Source: an uncultured Clostridia bacterium (GTDB lineage Bacteria > Bacillota > Clostridia > TANB77 > CAG-508). Taken from it: DNA of 40,336 bases. Shown here one piece after another: positions 4,059 to 39,482 of the stretch. Location: the NCBI GenBank assembly GCA_944388625.1, contig CALXJM010000003.1:1-40336 (forward strand), in the 5' to 3' direction. A program made the position numbers and the translations under genes. The number at the start of each line of letters is the position of its first letter. Position 1 is the first letter of the stretch. The notes below the pieces were generated by a model. The model did no database searches and was not told the DNA's origin. It worked only from the letters and a program-made list of their open reading frames with translations.

Positions 4059-6509
4059 TTAAAATCCAATTGTCCTTTTTTCATCTCTTTTTGCAATTAG
4101 TTCACTTGGATTTAAATCTTCTTCTACTATTGTCATTAGTTCTTTTTTATTTGTTACATTTTCCACATTTTTAGCGTGGGCAATTAAGATATTTTGGTAT
4201 AAGTTATGAATATATCTTGCATTTCCAAAACCTTCTATTTTTTTTGAACTTTCGACAATATTTATAATTTTTTCTTTTGCTTTTTGAGTTATTTTAAATT
4301 TATTTTCTTCTAACAATCTGTCAAAAATTTGTATTAATTCCTCTGTTGTGTAGTCTTCAAATAAAATATTGTATCCTATTCTAGAGCTTAATCCTACATT
4401 TGCCTTTATAAAGTTTTTCATTTCTTCTTGGTATCCAGCAAAAATAACAACTAAGTTATCTTTTTCGTCTTCCATAACTTTAACAATTGTAGATAAGCAG
4501 TCTTCTGAAAAAGTATGCTCTGAAACTAAAGCATATGCTTCATCAATAAATAGTACTCCACCCAATGCAGATTTCATAACATTATAGGTTTTCCCTGCTG
4601 TTTGCCCTATATATGGAGCAATTAAATCTTTAGCAGATACTTCTATTAATTTATTTTTTCGTATATACCCCAAATTATAGAATATGTCGCTGATTAGTCT
4701 TGCAACTGTTGTTTTCCCTGTTCCTGGATTTCCCATAAATACCATATGTAGGTTTAATTTTGATATATCTAAATTTGCATTCTTATTAAATTTTAATAGA
4801 CTTACTAAGTTATTAATTTCTTTTTTTATTTTTTCTAAGCCTACTAGATTATTTAGTTCTGCTAATATCTGTTCTAAGTCTTTCGTATTATATACTGTTG
4901 GAATATCATCCAATCCAATTTTTATACATTCGCCATTATACATCTTTCTATTTTCATTTAATATGATTCTATTATATAAGTTTTTTACATATTCCATATT
5001 TTTAATTTCGCTATTTTCATATGATTGTTTAATATAATTATAAATTTTTTCTTTTACTTTTATGTCTAATTTTTCATTTTTCTCTATTGTTTCTATTAAA
5101 AGTTGATAGATTGTTTCTACATTTAATTCATCTATGTCTAACTCAATATTAAATAAAGTAGTATTTAGTTTTGGATATTCGTTTAAGATTTTTTTTATGG
5201 TTTCTTTTTTCCCATAAATAACTGTACATACTCTTTTATTATTTTTTTCTATTTGCTCTGTTAATAAATTCAATATTCTGTTTTTTTCTACTGCTTCTAT
5301 ATATGCTAAGCTTTCGAAGTTTTCAATTAGCATCATTCCAGTTTTATTAATTATTTCTTTTTTTTCATTTTGTTTTACATATAGTCCATTAATTGCGAAT
5401 TTATCAAGTATAATTTCATTCATTGATTTTTCATAATACCTCATGTCATTGCTAAAGTAGTTGTAAAACCACATAAATTCGCCAATGATACCTTCTACTT
5501 TTTTTACAATTTCTTTGTCTTCTGTATAAAAAATAATATTAATTGGTATATAAGGAATAGTCTTGTCAACATAGTAATTAAATACATAGTTTAGTAGTTC
5601 GGTAATTTGTTTTTTTACTTTTTCGTTACATGGAAGTTCTTCTATCTGGCTTAAACTATCTTGCGTAAAATATTTAGAACGATTTGCAATAATTTTAGTA
5701 TCCATTTCTTTTAAATGTTTTTCTATGCCTTGTAATACATCTTTTTTCTCTACTTTTCTTAGATATTCTAAGTATCCTGCTACTTTATAAAAATACTCAT
5801 AATCATCTACCTTTTTTTTCTTTTCATTAAAGTCTTTTACTTTTATTTTAAATGTATTGTATGTCATATTATCATAATAGTCTCTTAATTTATTGCTAAA
5901 GTATTTATAGTCCTCGATTTTAGACAAATCAACATATTTAATAGTGGCCACTTTTTTTTCGTCATCATAATTGTCTAATTGTACTAAATCTCCATCTAAT
6001 ATGACTTGTGCAAAAAGCAAGGTGTATACATCAAATTTTTCTAGTTCACTTTTTTCTAGTGATATTGTTTCTTGCATTTTTGGTTCTTGTAAAATAGTTT
6101 CTACGATTTCTACACCAGATATTTTATCTTTTCTTTTTTCATTAATTCGTTCCATTTCTTCTAATAGTGTATGTACCAAGTATAAAATACAATTTTTAAA
6201 ATTGCATCCTCTACATATATTACTTACAATTCGTTTTTCTTTTCTTCTTGTAACTGCTGAAGATATATTAACTCTGTTTTTGTAATTTAGTATGTATTTT
6301 AAATAACTATAGTCTTCTTCTAAGCATGCTTTTACATTGTCATATCTAATTAGATTGTCTTTTTTTTCTTCTTCTGTAAGTTCTTCGTTTTTTAATACTA
6401 TTAAATTGTTTTTTAAATAAAATAGTACTGTTTTTAGCTCACATTTAGGTATCTTTGTGTATATATTAATAATATCATTTTCTGCAATTATTTTTTCAAT
6501 TTCTTCCAT
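4059..6509 (-). CDS. CbxX/SpoVK-like AAA+ ATPase with degenerate first module
   Basis: This protein of 816 residues has one intact AAA+ domain at the C-terminus: Walker A GNPGTGKT (593-600), Walker B LFIDEA (653-658), a sensor segment VVIFAGY and GLSSRIGY with the putative arginine finger. This is the CbxX/CfqX/SpoVK family, whose members remodel proteins. The region of about 300-500 looks like a second, decayed AAA domain: LIENFESL stands where Walker B should be and no Walker A is visible. The N-terminal third is charged and helical, with a CRGCNFKNC cluster (C99, C102, C107) that may bind metal. Its partner is unknown. It lies between rpmA and rpsF. The start follows AAAGGAAA. Confidence 0.8.
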   Translation of the reverse strand: MEEIEKIIAENDIINIYTKIPKCELKTVLFYLKNNLIVLKNEELTEEEKKDNLIRYDNVKACLEEDYSYLKYILNYKNRVNISSAVTRRKEKRIVSNICRGCNFKNCILYLVHTLLEEMERINEKRKDKISGVEIVETILQEPKMQETISLEKSELEKFDVYTLLFAQVILDGDLVQLDNYDDEKKVATIKYVDLSKIEDYKYFSNKLRDYYDNMTYNTFKIKVKDFNEKKKKVDDYEYFYKVAGYLEYLRKVEKKDVLQGIEKHLKEMDTKIIANRSKYFTQDSLSQIEELPCNEKVKKQITELLNYVFNYYVDKTIPYIPINIIFYTEDKEIVKKVEGIIGEFMWFYNYFSNDMRYYEKSMNEIILDKFAINGLYVKQNEKKEIINKTGMMLIENFESLAYIEAVEKNRILNLLTEQIEKNNKRVCTVIYGKKETIKKILNEYPKLNTTLFNIELDIDELNVETIYQLLIETIEKNEKLDIKVKEKIYNYIKQSYENSEIKNMEYVKNLYNRIILNENRKMYNGECIKIGLDDIPTVYNTKDLEQILAELNNLVGLEKIKKEINNLVSLLKFNKNANLDISKLNLHMVFMGNPGTGKTTVARLISDIFYNLGYIRKNKLIEVSAKDLIAPYIGQTAGKTYNVMKSALGGVLFIDEAYALVSEHTFSEDCLSTIVKVMEDEKDNLVVIFAGYQEEMKNFIKANVGLSSRIGYNILFEDYTTEELIQIFDRLLEENKFKITQKAKEKIINIVESSKKIEGFGNARYIHNLYQNILIAHAKNVENVTNKKELMTIVEEDLNPSELIAKRDEKRTIGF

Positions 6510-35712: not shown

Positions 35713-35790
35713 GGTGGATGTAGCTCAGTTGGTTAGAGCGCTAGTTTGTGGCACTAGAGGCCGTGGGTTCGAGTCCCATCTTCCACCCCA
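35713..35790 (+). tRNA. tRNA-His (GTG)
   Basis: Full cloverleaf with an encoded extra G at position -1 facing C73, the tRNA-His identity pair. D arm GCTC/GAGC, anticodon stem CTAGT/ACTAG with loop TTGTGGC (anticodon GTG), T arm GTGGG/CCCAT, encoded CCA. One acceptor-stem mismatch: T6 against T67. Confidence 0.95.
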
Positions 35791-35815
35791 TTACTATAAT
35801 GCAAATTTTATATTT

Positions 35816-35891
35816 TGGGGTGTAGCCAAGCGGTAAGGCACTAGACTTTGACTCTAGCATTTCGGCGGTTCGAATCCTCCCACCCCAGCCA
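35816..35891 (+). tRNA. tRNA-Gln (TTG)
   Basis: Acceptor TGGGGTG/CACCCCA, D arm GCC/GGC, anticodon stem CTAGA/TCTAG with loop CTTTGAC (anticodon TTG), T loop TTCGAAT, G73 and encoded CCA. The T stem GGCGG/CCTCC has one C-T mismatch at 51/63. Second gene of the tRNA transcript. Confidence 0.95.
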
Positions 35892-35946: not shown

Positions 35947-35992
35947 CTATTATGCATAAAAGACTAGTTTCCTAGTCTTTTATGCATAATAG
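35947..35992. repeat. Perfect 21-base inverted repeat overlapping a stop codon
   Basis: Arms 35947-35967 and 35972-35992 are exact complements (CTATTATGCATAAAAGACTA plus G) around a TTTC loop. The last five codons of the 45-residue gene lie in the right arm. No T tract follows on either side. Confidence 0.85.
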
Positions 35993-36117
35993 GCATCTGT
36001 TGCACCTAATATGTAGATTTTGATTGCTAGTTCTGGATTTTTATTTATAATTTTTCTTTCTTGTGGTGTGAATATTTTTTCGTTTTCTCTCAATCTTTCC
36101 AAAATCAGGTTTTCCAT
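35980..36117 (-). CDS. Unrecognised 45-residue protein with Spo0A-box promoter
   Basis: Small soluble protein starting MENLILERLRENEKIFTPQE and ending IYILGATDAYYA, likely two or three helices. I do not know the family for certain; short Clostridial proteins of similar look exist. An AGGAG site lies 13 bases before ATG, somewhat far. Promoter TTGAAA-17-TATAAT lies at 36184-36212, with a TGTCGAA box five bases above the -35, as in Spo0A-activated promoters. The stop lies inside a perfect inverted repeat. It is the only gene between the tRNA operon and sortase. Confidence 0.65.
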   Translation of the reverse strand: MENLILERLRENEKIFTPQERKIINKNPELAIKIYILGATDAYYA

Positions 36118-36183
36118 AATTAATATAATACTCCTACTTATAGTGTTGCCAGATTGATTTTAATATAATATTCCTTGCTTTGC

Positions 36184-36212
36184 ATTATACATCTATCGTA
36201 AATTTTTTTCAA
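36184..36212 (-). promoter_or_regulatory. Promoter of the 45-residue gene
   Basis: On minus: TTGAAA (36212-36207), 17-base spacer, TATAAT (36189-36184). Start near 36177, leader about 60 bases. Confidence 0.65.
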
Positions 36213-36217
36213 CCTTT

Positions 36218-36224
36218 TTCGACA
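36218..36224 (-). promoter_or_regulatory. Spo0A box next to the -35 element
   Basis: TGTCGAA on minus, an exact match to the core TGNCGAA, five bases upstream of the -35 box of the 45-residue gene. Spo0A-activated sigma-A promoters carry the box at about this place. Confidence 0.6.
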
Positions 36225-36375
36225 CTTTTGTTTTTATTTTTTTATTTTTTATTTTTTTAACTAGTTTTATAATTAGTTAAATTAATGCAAGTTATTAATT
36301 TCAATATCTTTGTGATATTTATTTTAAGATTCATTTTCCTTATTTTTCCACTCTGTTTTTCCATATCATGGGATA

Positions 36376-36417
36376 TTTGTCGAATTTTGTTTTGACTTTT
36401 TTACATTTTTCGACAAA
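36376..36417. promoter_or_regulatory. Two inverted perfect Spo0A boxes
   Basis: TTTGTCGAA at 36376-36384 (plus) and TTCGACAAA at 36409-36417 (minus box) are exact complements with 24 bases between. Each matches the Spo0A box including its flank. Confidence 0.6.
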
Positions 36418-36499: not shown

Positions 36500-37201
36500 T
36501 TATTGTTCTCTTGCAAATATTACCAACCTGGTACTTGCATCTTCAGTACAAGTTGTCAAAGAAATTTCTCTTGCCCCATTAGTTTCTCTATTCAAATAAC
36601 TTGAATCGCTTTCAGAAAGAATTTGAGTTTGATATATCTTATATGTAATTTTTCTTCCGGATGTGTCGGTAATATATATCAAGTCTCCTTCTTTTAATTT
36701 ACTGTTATTTGAAAAGAAAGTTCCATTTCTATAATTATGTCCTGCTATTGTGGTATTCCTTCTTTGATTTAAAATTGGCTCTCCATTTTCCGATGTTGTT
36801 GGATATACTAATACAGTAGCAATTTCAAGCGACCTTTTTGTAATTTTATCCACAATTGGATAATGTATTCCAGTAGCTGGTATTTCAATGGTTCCTACAA
36901 CGACATATCCCTCATATGTAATAGTTGAACTGCTTCCATTATTTCCACCAGATATAATTGTATTTTGTATTTGTTCATATGGATTTTGTACATTTCCAAT
37001 TATAGTATTTTCTGTTACATTTTCATCTTCTTCATCATTATTTCCTTGATTTTCAAATTGGTTAATAATTTCCTCTGATTTTTTTTCTATATAATATTTT
37101 TGATACATATCATATCCAAAAAATCCAAGAAGTACAATAATAGCAATAATAGCAATAACCAATATAACTGTTAAAAAGGTACCATATTTACTATTAAACA
37201 T
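36500..37201 (-). CDS. Sortase family transpeptidase
   Basis: Membrane-anchored sortase of 233 residues. N-terminal signal anchor (about 8-30), a linker rich in Asn, Glu and Gly to about 95, then the catalytic domain: TIAGHNYRNGTFF with the active His, SLTTCTED with the Cys and STRLVIFAREQ with the Arg at the very end. Sortases join surface proteins to peptidoglycan or assemble pili or spore-surface proteins. No LPXTG-like substrate is encoded in the window. It resembles class D more than A or B, but that is not certain. A possible extended -10 promoter (TGTTATAAT, 37247-37239) is upstream. Confidence 0.9.
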   Translation of the reverse strand: MFNSKYGTFLTVILVIAIIAIIVLLGFFGYDMYQKYYIEKKSEEIINQFENQGNNDEEDENVTENTIIGNVQNPYEQIQNTIISGGNNGSSSTITYEGYVVVGTIEIPATGIHYPIVDKITKRSLEIATVLVYPTTSENGEPILNQRRNTTIAGHNYRNGTFFSNNSKLKEGDLIYITDTSGRKITYKIYQTQILSESDSSYLNRETNGAREISLTTCTEDASTRLVIFAREQ

Positions 37202-37724: not shown

Positions 37725-39482
37725 CTACTTTACAAGTATGGCTTTAATTCGTCTAACTCCTGCTGAACTTGCTTCTTCTTTTTTTATAATAAACTTACCT
37801 AGTTCTGCTGTATGTGATACATGTGGTCCTCCACATATTTCTTTACTAAAGTCTCCAATAGTATATACTTTAACTTTCTCACCATATTTATTTTCAAATA
37901 AGCCTATTGCTCCGGATTTTTTCGCTTCTTCTAAAGACATTTCTTCACATGTTACTAGTAAATCTCGTTGAATTTGCTCGTTTACAATATCTTCTACCTT
38001 CTTTAGTTCATCTTTGGTCATTTTTTGTGGGTGTGAAAAGTCAAATCTTAATCTTTCAGCTGTTATGTTTGAGCCTTTTTGTGCTACATGGTCGCCTAAC
38101 ACAATTTTCAATGCTTTATGCAAAAGATGTGTAGCAGTATGATATGCTATGGTAGTTTCGTTTTGCTCAGCAAGTCCTCCTTTAAATTTTTGTTCTGAAC
38201 CTAATCTAGATTTTTCCTGGTGCTCCTTAAACAATTTTTCAAATTCTTCTTCATCAACTTTTAGATTTTGTTCTTGAGCCAATTCTTTGGAAACTTCTGG
38301 CGGGAATCCATATGTTTCATATAAGTTGAAAATATCTTTCCCTGGTATTGTATTTTGGTTATTTTTCATGATTTGAGTTGCTATTTTATTAAATTCACGT
38401 TCTCCATTAATTAAGGTTTTCGTGAATTTATCTTTTTCTTCTAAAATAATTTGTTTAATTGTTTCTTTTTTCTCTTCTAATTCTGGATACATATTCTTTA
38501 GGTTTTCGATATTTAAATCGATTAATATTTCTAATTTTGATAAATCAATTTCTAACTTATTTAAATGTCTTGTCATTCTTCTTATAATTCTTCTTAATAT
38601 ATATCCCCTATCAATATTGCTTGGTCTACCACCATCTGCAATAATCATCATACTAGCTCTTAAATGTTCTGCTACAATTCTTCTGCTATTAATGTTGTCA
38701 CTTTTAGCAAGTTTTTTTAATTCATCCATAATTGGTTTAAATAATTCAGTATCATATGGTGTTTCTTTGCCTTGTAATAGCATAGTCATTCGTTCTAATC
38801 CTAATCCAGTGTCTACATTCTGTTGTTTTAATTTAGTGTAAGTACCATCTTCATGTTTATAATATTCCATGAAAACATTATTCCATATCTCTACATATTT
38901 TCCGCAATCACAAGATGGATCACAATGTTCTGAACAAGCAGGTTTACCTGTATCATAAAACATTTCTGTATCTGGTCCACATGGACCTTCTGTTCCAGCA
39001 ATCCACCAGTTATTATCTTTTCCGAAAAAATAAATTTTTTCTTTTGGTAGTCCTGCTTCCTCCCAACATTTGGCTGTTTCTATATCTCTTGGTGCATCTT
39101 TGTCTCCGGCAAAGCAAGTAACTGATAATTTTTCAATTGGAATATTTAATTCTTTTGTCAGAAATTCAAAACTCATTTTTACGGCTTCTTCTTTAAAATA
39201 ATCTCCTAGAGACCAATTTCCTAGCATTTCAAAAAAAGTTAAATGCCTATTATCTCCTACTTCATCAAGGTCTACCGTTCTTAAACATTTTTGATAATCA
39301 GTTAATCGTTTTCCTTCTGGATGTTTTTCACCTAAAAGATATGGTACTAATGGATGCATTCCTGCTGTTGTAAATAAAACAGATGGATCATTTTCAGGAA
39401 TTAAAGGAGCACTTGGAATAATTTTGTGACCATGTCTTTCAAAAAATTTTAAGTATTTTTCCCTTATTTCTATAGCTTTCAT
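37725..39482 (-). CDS. alaS: Alanyl-tRNA synthetase, short form without C-Ala domain
   Basis: AlaRS of 585 residues; the common bacterial form has about 870. Class II aminoacylation core (FFEMLGNWSLGDYFKEEA, GPCGPDTEMFYD, DTGLGLERM), the tRNA-recognition helices, and the editing domain with HxxxH (448-452, HTATH) and CGGPH (550-554). It stops right after the editing domain (SSAGVRRIKAI), so the DHHA1/C-Ala part is absent, without sign of frameshift. A four-Cys insert lies at 183-193 (CSEHCDPSCDC). Wording such as LFTTAGMHPLVPYLLG recalls AlaRS of CPR bacteria. No T-box is visible upstream. AGGAG precedes ATG. Confidence 0.93.
   Translation of the reverse strand: MKAIEIREKYLKFFERHGHKIIPSAPLIPENDPSVLFTTAGMHPLVPYLLGEKHPEGKRLTDYQKCLRTVDLDEVGDNRHLTFFEMLGNWSLGDYFKEEAVKMSFEFLTKELNIPIEKLSVTCFAGDKDAPRDIETAKCWEEAGLPKEKIYFFGKDNNWWIAGTEGPCGPDTEMFYDTGKPACSEHCDPSCDCGKYVEIWNNVFMEYYKHEDGTYTKLKQQNVDTGLGLERMTMLLQGKETPYDTELFKPIMDELKKLAKSDNINSRRIVAEHLRASMMIIADGGRPSNIDRGYILRRIIRRMTRHLNKLEIDLSKLEILIDLNIENLKNMYPELEEKKETIKQIILEEKDKFTKTLINGEREFNKIATQIMKNNQNTIPGKDIFNLYETYGFPPEVSKELAQEQNLKVDEEEFEKLFKEHQEKSRLGSEQKFKGGLAEQNETTIAYHTATHLLHKALKIVLGDHVAQKGSNITAERLRFDFSHPQKMTKDELKKVEDIVNEQIQRDLLVTCEEMSLEEAKKSGAIGLFENKYGEKVKVYTIGDFSKEICGGPHVSHTAELGKFIIKKEEASSAGVRRIKAILVK

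Follow-up and report, generated by a model that had tools for sequence, protein, structure and literature searches.

A small gene behind Spo0A boxes in an uncultured Clostridia bacterium, probably orphaned prophage cargo

The stretch of DNA analysed here (the window, 40,336 nucleotides) is contig C3 of a Clostridia genome of 1.18 Mb that is 96% complete and belongs to a spore-forming gut bacterium. Between a tRNA-Gln gene and a sortase gene it carries a 45-residue ORF, and upstream of this ORF stand exact copies of TGTCGAA, the classical Spo0A core (C. difficile Spo0A, PMC3485338). A sequence-only reading of the window had described the ORF, a TTGAAA-17-TATAAT promoter, a box five bases above the −35 and two more boxes in inverted order further upstream. 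The ORF listing, a promoter scan and an exact motif scan recovered each of these elements, and the features of the locus are as follows.

35816–35891, + strand: tRNA-Gln (Rfam search), its 3′ end facing the 3′ end of the ORF
35947–35992, − strand: perfect hairpin of 21 bp with a 4-nt loop, overlapping the ORF stop codon, unique in the genome
35980–36117, − strand: the 45-aa ORF, MENLILERLRENEKIFTPQERKIINKNPELAIKIYILGATDAYYA (ORF listing, homologues, purifying selection, AlphaFold2 model)
36131–36135, − strand: Shine-Dalgarno AGGAG as read from the sequence, 13 nt from the ATG, which is rather far
36160–36175: second copy, 40 bp upstream, of the stretch AGGAGTATTATATTAA that lies at the Shine-Dalgarno (repeat search)
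36184–36189, − strand: −10 element TATAAT (promoter scan)
36207–36212, − strand: −35 element TTGAAA (promoter scan), with a 17-bp spacer to the −10
36208–36214, − strand: possible degenerate second box GGTTGAA, read from the sequence, in 10-bp register with the proximal box and overlapping the −35
36218–36224, − strand: proximal exact Spo0A box TGTCGAA, ending 5 bp above the −35
36378–36384, + strand: distal exact Spo0A box in inverted orientation (exact motif scan)
36409–36415, − strand: distal exact Spo0A box, its TGTCGAAAAAT common to the genus g7 loci L038 and L042

The promoter hexamers alone are unremarkable, because the DNA is AT-rich and five promoter-like sites were found against 3.9 expected, that of the 45-aa ORF being the best (11/12). 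The whole genome holds 42 exact boxes in 1.18 Mb, from which about 0.012 would be expected in the intergenic interval of ∼ 340 bp; three boxes in that interval are therefore far beyond chance (Poisson P(≥3) ∼ 3e-7 per interval). The window as a whole has four against 1.03 expected, a number reached by 1 of 100 shuffles. The fourth (4251–4257, − strand), which lies inside a coding ORF, contradicts the earlier statement that the window held no exact box elsewhere. On inspection, the sequence also allows the proximal site to be taken as a box pair, TGTCGAA-AAA-GGTTGAA, the second member overlapping the −35. In another species an inverted TGTCGAA pair, spaced like the distal pair of the window, was seen upstream of a TlyA-like gene (L142, 3060–3098).

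The hairpin at 35947–35992 possibly forms the mRNA 3′ end or a terminator that lacks a T run; a repeated element was ruled out, as the hairpin is a single copy in the genome. Hairpins occur at the same place in the homologues L043 (16 bp) and L050 (13 bp). Support was found neither for a promoter candidate on the + strand (TTTACA-17-TAATAA at 36400) nor for a 35-aa ORF that appears in the ORF listing at 36257–36364 (− strand). Elsewhere in the window, an alanyl-tRNA-synthetase-type ORF of 585 aa (37725–39482) is shorter than expected for AlaRS.

Relatives of the 45-aa ORF were detected by profile search in 29 of the 390 genomes of its family, and a class-wide profile search of 391 genomes matched its own genome only; from this spread we take the ORF to be a real gene that is fast-evolving and lineage-restricted. 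Nei–Gojobori estimates place dN well below dS, indicating purifying selection on the ORF family (dS 0.49 and dN 0.04 for L040/L041, a pair from two species; dS 1.45 and dN 0.36 for the window ORF versus L042). AlphaFold2 models the protein as three helices (pLDDT 94.7). How it acts is a guess, since Pfam at E ≤ 1 gave nothing (SinI, Sda and Spo0E, PF09388, included) and neither PHROG nor a fold search against viral models gave anything convincing. Foldseek against the PDB at E ≤ 10 also returned nothing, a weak test when a protein is helical and only 45 residues long, and there was no relevant sequence match to SinI or Sda, again a weak test at this size. Searches with the small protein in a phage collection (tblastn) and in viral contigs found nothing, a query of ∼ 50 aa being weak.

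An exact TGTCGAA lies within 350 bp upstream at 10 of 25 homologue loci (300 shuffles: mean 0.57, maximum 3), a count that overstates independence because the homologue loci, and the prophages described below, are related to one another. The downstream control DNA of the homologues has a box at 1 of 25. In an unbiased count of 7-mers in the upstream regions, GTCGAAA and TGTCGAA were the most over-represented. At the other 15 of the 25 the same 350 bp hold no exact box; near matches are visible by eye in several. The nearest relatives in promoter layout belong to genus g7, to which the distal TGTCGAAAAAT element is common and whose promoters have the same 5-bp gap from box to −35. Position just above or overlapping the −35, occurrence beyond chance and conservation together are consistent with a Spo0A-activated σA promoter. 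In L038 and L042, a short stem-loop is conserved between the distal and the proximal boxes, downstream of a box promoter and with T-rich sequence after it; it is possibly a Spo0A-controlled small RNA or an attenuator.

The host genome encodes a full-length Spo0A with receiver and Spo0A_C domains. Its DNA-binding domain is a close match to the B. subtilis counterpart and can be aligned with two solved Spo0A structures (1lq1, 1fc3), with identity throughout the stretch SRVERAIRHAIEVAWSRG. SpoIIID and SpoIIR are encoded as well, and boxes precede the host genes for a Spo0E-like protein (168 bp upstream of the start) and for AgrB. A yabG-like ORF of 120 aa (L086, 1576–1938) matches only the first 112 of the 280 positions of the YabG model, and we regard it as truncated, frameshifted or degraded. 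The sequence-only reading had named three ways in which it could fail, namely a genome that lacks spo0A, boxes that are not conserved and an ORF without coding constraint. It failed in none of them, since spo0A with a conserved DNA-binding domain is present, boxes are kept upstream of the homologues (10/25 against 0.57 expected) and the ORF is under purifying selection. Judged from these sequence features, control of the 45-aa gene promoter by Spo0A is likely, and activation rather than repression would be the best reading of the box–promoter geometry.

The homologues mostly lie at prophage ends, between lysis genes and either the 3′ end of a tRNA or tmRNA or an integrase. Endolysin, holin, tail or head genes were confirmed beside them, and a tRNA or tmRNA 3′ end faces the ORF at seven loci, the window included. 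With relatives inside or at the ends of prophages, the family has the setting of prophage cargo carried at the att end. Several homologues are divergent from an XRE protein whose C-terminal domain is Spo0E-like (PF09388, E 5e-9 to 2e-7), and others neighbour an XRE gene and a separate protein with a Spo0E-like stretch.

When loci were gathered by the partner protein, 28 XRE-Spo0E loci were obtained in 25 of the 390 family genomes, and the XRE-Spo0E protein, a longer query than the small protein, found five viral contigs, four of which are close relatives with boxes. For the box test, three loci already in the homologue set were left out and the four viral contigs were added (n = 29). A box lies within 300 bp upstream at 22 of the 29 (shuffle mean 0.82, maximum 4), and control regions beyond the XRE-Spo0E 3′ end have one in 5 of 25. 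TGTCGAA is the top 7-mer of these upstream regions. A promoter was scored for 27 boxes, of which 17 stand exactly 9 bp above the −35. Among XRE-Spo0E loci of the GTDB collection, 16 of 19 have a box; all are from uncultured Clostridia MAGs, several of them the same genomes as in the family set. Two viral contigs (L101 and L104) contain, by eye, a recognisable homologue of the small ORF that ends at a tRNA or tmRNA 3′ end. Most other XRE-Spo0E loci face different, unrelated small ORFs, and for this reason we read the promoter as conserved while the effector changes.

A two-hairpin leader RNA was observed ∼ 30–150 nt upstream of small ORFs at 13 loci (L040, L044, L045, L046, L047, L049, L051, L056, L058, L059, L113, L115 and L120). 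Its P1 helix, typically GAGATAG/CTATCTC, is followed by P2 and then by TGTCAA shortly before the Shine-Dalgarno. Compensatory changes are found in 11 of 14 pairs, and the observed covariation was reached by 0 of 500 shuffles. The leader also precedes unrelated small ORFs and is absent from the window copy. An Rfam search of the window and of homologue loci returned only tRNA, tmRNA and T-box, with no family for the leader at the loci covered.

In the prophages, such a promoter would drive a small att-end ORF, to which an XRE-Spo0E repressor often lies divergent, and the two together would form a sporulation-sensing switch. We tentatively extend this to temperate phages of gut Clostridia in general, which may carry a self-contained att-end switch: an XRE-Spo0E protein would sense or erase Spo0A~P and would face a box promoter activated by Spo0A~P, which would make one of several interchangeable small effectors, often behind the two-hairpin leader. 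Hosts would occasionally keep the effector alone, and the window would be such a case.

The divergent XRE genes near many homologues could also mean that the small protein is a phage antirepressor or induction trigger which, induced by Spo0A~P, disables the XRE repressor so that the prophage leaves the pre-sporulation cell. The small ORF of L080, convergent with a tyrosine integrase and placed between the lysis module and attP/int, would suit such a role, and SinI–SinR, as outlined in PMC3163267, is a pair of a Spo0A-controlled small antirepressor and an XRE protein. However, the small ORFs that stand opposite these XRE-Spo0E proteins are of unrelated kinds, and orphan copies persist without an XRE neighbour (the window and L070); we consider an antirepressor unlikely. 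The resemblance to SinI/SinR lies in a small helical protein under (here predicted) Spo0A control next to an XRE-type regulator, but there is no SinI sequence match, the window copy is without a partner, and the XRE protein carries a Spo0E-like domain and not a SinI-like tail.

Another reading keeps the box and replaces the factor that binds it, TGTCGAA being the operator of the XRE-Spo0E protein, whose gene the prophage boxes adjoin, or of a second Spo0A_C-like protein. The host does encode a protein with a Spo0A_C domain and no receiver match (G000, contig C59, 3995–4729; L002, L091), which has its own TGTCGAA box 94 bp upstream, so a Spo0A-like competitor is possible. XRE proteins, however, normally have palindromic operators, and palindromes distinct from the boxes can be seen between these and the XRE genes. 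The box is moreover the classical Spo0A core that also precedes the host spo0E-like and agrB genes, and the window copy has boxes although its genome is without an XRE-Spo0E fusion at E ≤ 1e-15. We think a factor other than Spo0A quite improbable.

Beside the window copy, the ORF listing and Pfam revealed no XRE, Spo0E, integrase or phage genes, and no second copy of the tRNA-Gln 3′ end, which could mark an att core, was found within the window. We call this copy orphaned because these elements, as well as an XRE-Spo0E fusion anywhere in the genome at E ≤ 1e-15, are missing; it is most likely a retained phage cargo gene. Relatives have the order (HIT-)sortase–tRNA-His–tRNA-Gln, and the small gene is absent from their orthologous interval. 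The window has this tRNA pair in inverted order, with the ORF and its boxes between tRNA-Gln and the sortase. The inversion of tRNA-His/tRNA-Gln (35714–35891) against the sortase (36500–37201) sets the window apart from most relatives; the same tRNA order occurs in G016 (L144), with other inserted DNA. The family, the adjacency to a tRNA and the insertion relative to relatives make a prophage origin of the window copy likely.

The sequence-only reading had seen in the gene an undescribed small sporulation-entry product. As a host gene it would be a native, vertically inherited regulator, SinI-, Sda- or AbbA-like, switched on by Spo0A. Boxes and promoter are present as this would have it, and vertical retention does occur: homologues in genus g7 (L068/L069) and in the rpoD–scpB region (L070/L071) are at the same chromosomal place with no phage genes, and the two-species pair L040/L041, with its low dN, can be read likewise. 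The gene is patchy, however (29/390; its own genome only among the 391 of the class), it is missing from the orthologous interval of relatives, its homologues are mainly at prophage ends, and at E ≤ 1 Pfam relates it to none of SinI, Sda and Spo0E, all of which makes a host regulator decidedly unlikely. Least of all would we expect a recombination directionality factor (Xis-like) made at sporulation onset to excise the prophage: the gene adjoins att sites and such factors are small, but the family has a mean net charge of 0.1, about 0 and unlike that of a typical basic DNA-binding Xis, orphan copies are under selection without an integrase, and there is no excisionase match in Pfam or PHROG.

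We suggest instead that the locus as a whole is probably best explained as an orphaned, selected prophage cargo gene activated by host Spo0A~P. Spo0A~P would bind the TGTCGAA box just above the −35, with the distal inverted pair adding affinity, and the bound Spo0A~P would recruit σA RNA polymerase, so that the 45-aa protein is made at sporulation entry. The three-helix protein would then probably bind a regulator, speculatively a Spo0A or kinase-pathway protein or the XRE repressor, and this would delay or bias sporulation or lysogeny, as DevI of ICEBs1 restrains development. That the protein is an effector which tunes sporulation or lysogeny we offer as a guarded proposal; it might restrain sporulation, disable a repressor or protect the prophage.

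DevI (YdcO) of ICEBs1 in Bacillus subtilis is an 86-aa protein whose gene lies in an ICE operon that Pxis drives and RapI induces (PMC8032392). The likeness drawn here is one of function: DevI is a small mobile-element protein that acts on the host Spo0A pathway, as the 45-aa protein would, and neither has a recognisable domain, but DevI is not reported as activated through Spo0A boxes. Phages of the phi29 family carry sites for Spo0A in their DNA (Meijer et al., 2005, cited in PMC9437464), and phage gene expression there follows the sporulation decision. According to the citing account, a virulent phage has its lytic development suspended by bound Spo0A, whereas the phages of the present family are temperate and the box stands where activation would be expected, above the −35 of a small gene that is dedicated cargo. 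Spo0E-like phosphatases have been reported on Brevibacillus phages (PMC4909266) and share the Spo0E-like domain (PF09388) with the divergent prophage partner; the partner's domain, however, is fused to XRE and stands opposite a Spo0A-box promoter, and the window ORF is not Spo0E-like. Human-gut phages of spore-formers carry sporulation regulators, among them a truncated Spo0A along with further genes already known (PMC10294663), but the main text of that survey does not mention Spo0E or 0A boxes. A Spo0A-box/XRE-Spo0E phage module was not found in the open-access papers searched, an absence that is no proof of novelty.

That mobile elements can delay sporulation is known from DevI, and that they can read Spo0A is known from phi29. 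The comparisons presented here suggest a small phage-borne switch that is wired into the host's decision to sporulate. If this is true, a compact phage module would both read Spo0A~P, through the boxes, and write it, through the Spo0E-like domain, and it would become directly testable how lysogeny and sporulation are linked in uncultured gut Clostridia. The case also shows that a small gene standing alone with 0A boxes may belong to the cargo of a phage instead of to host development.
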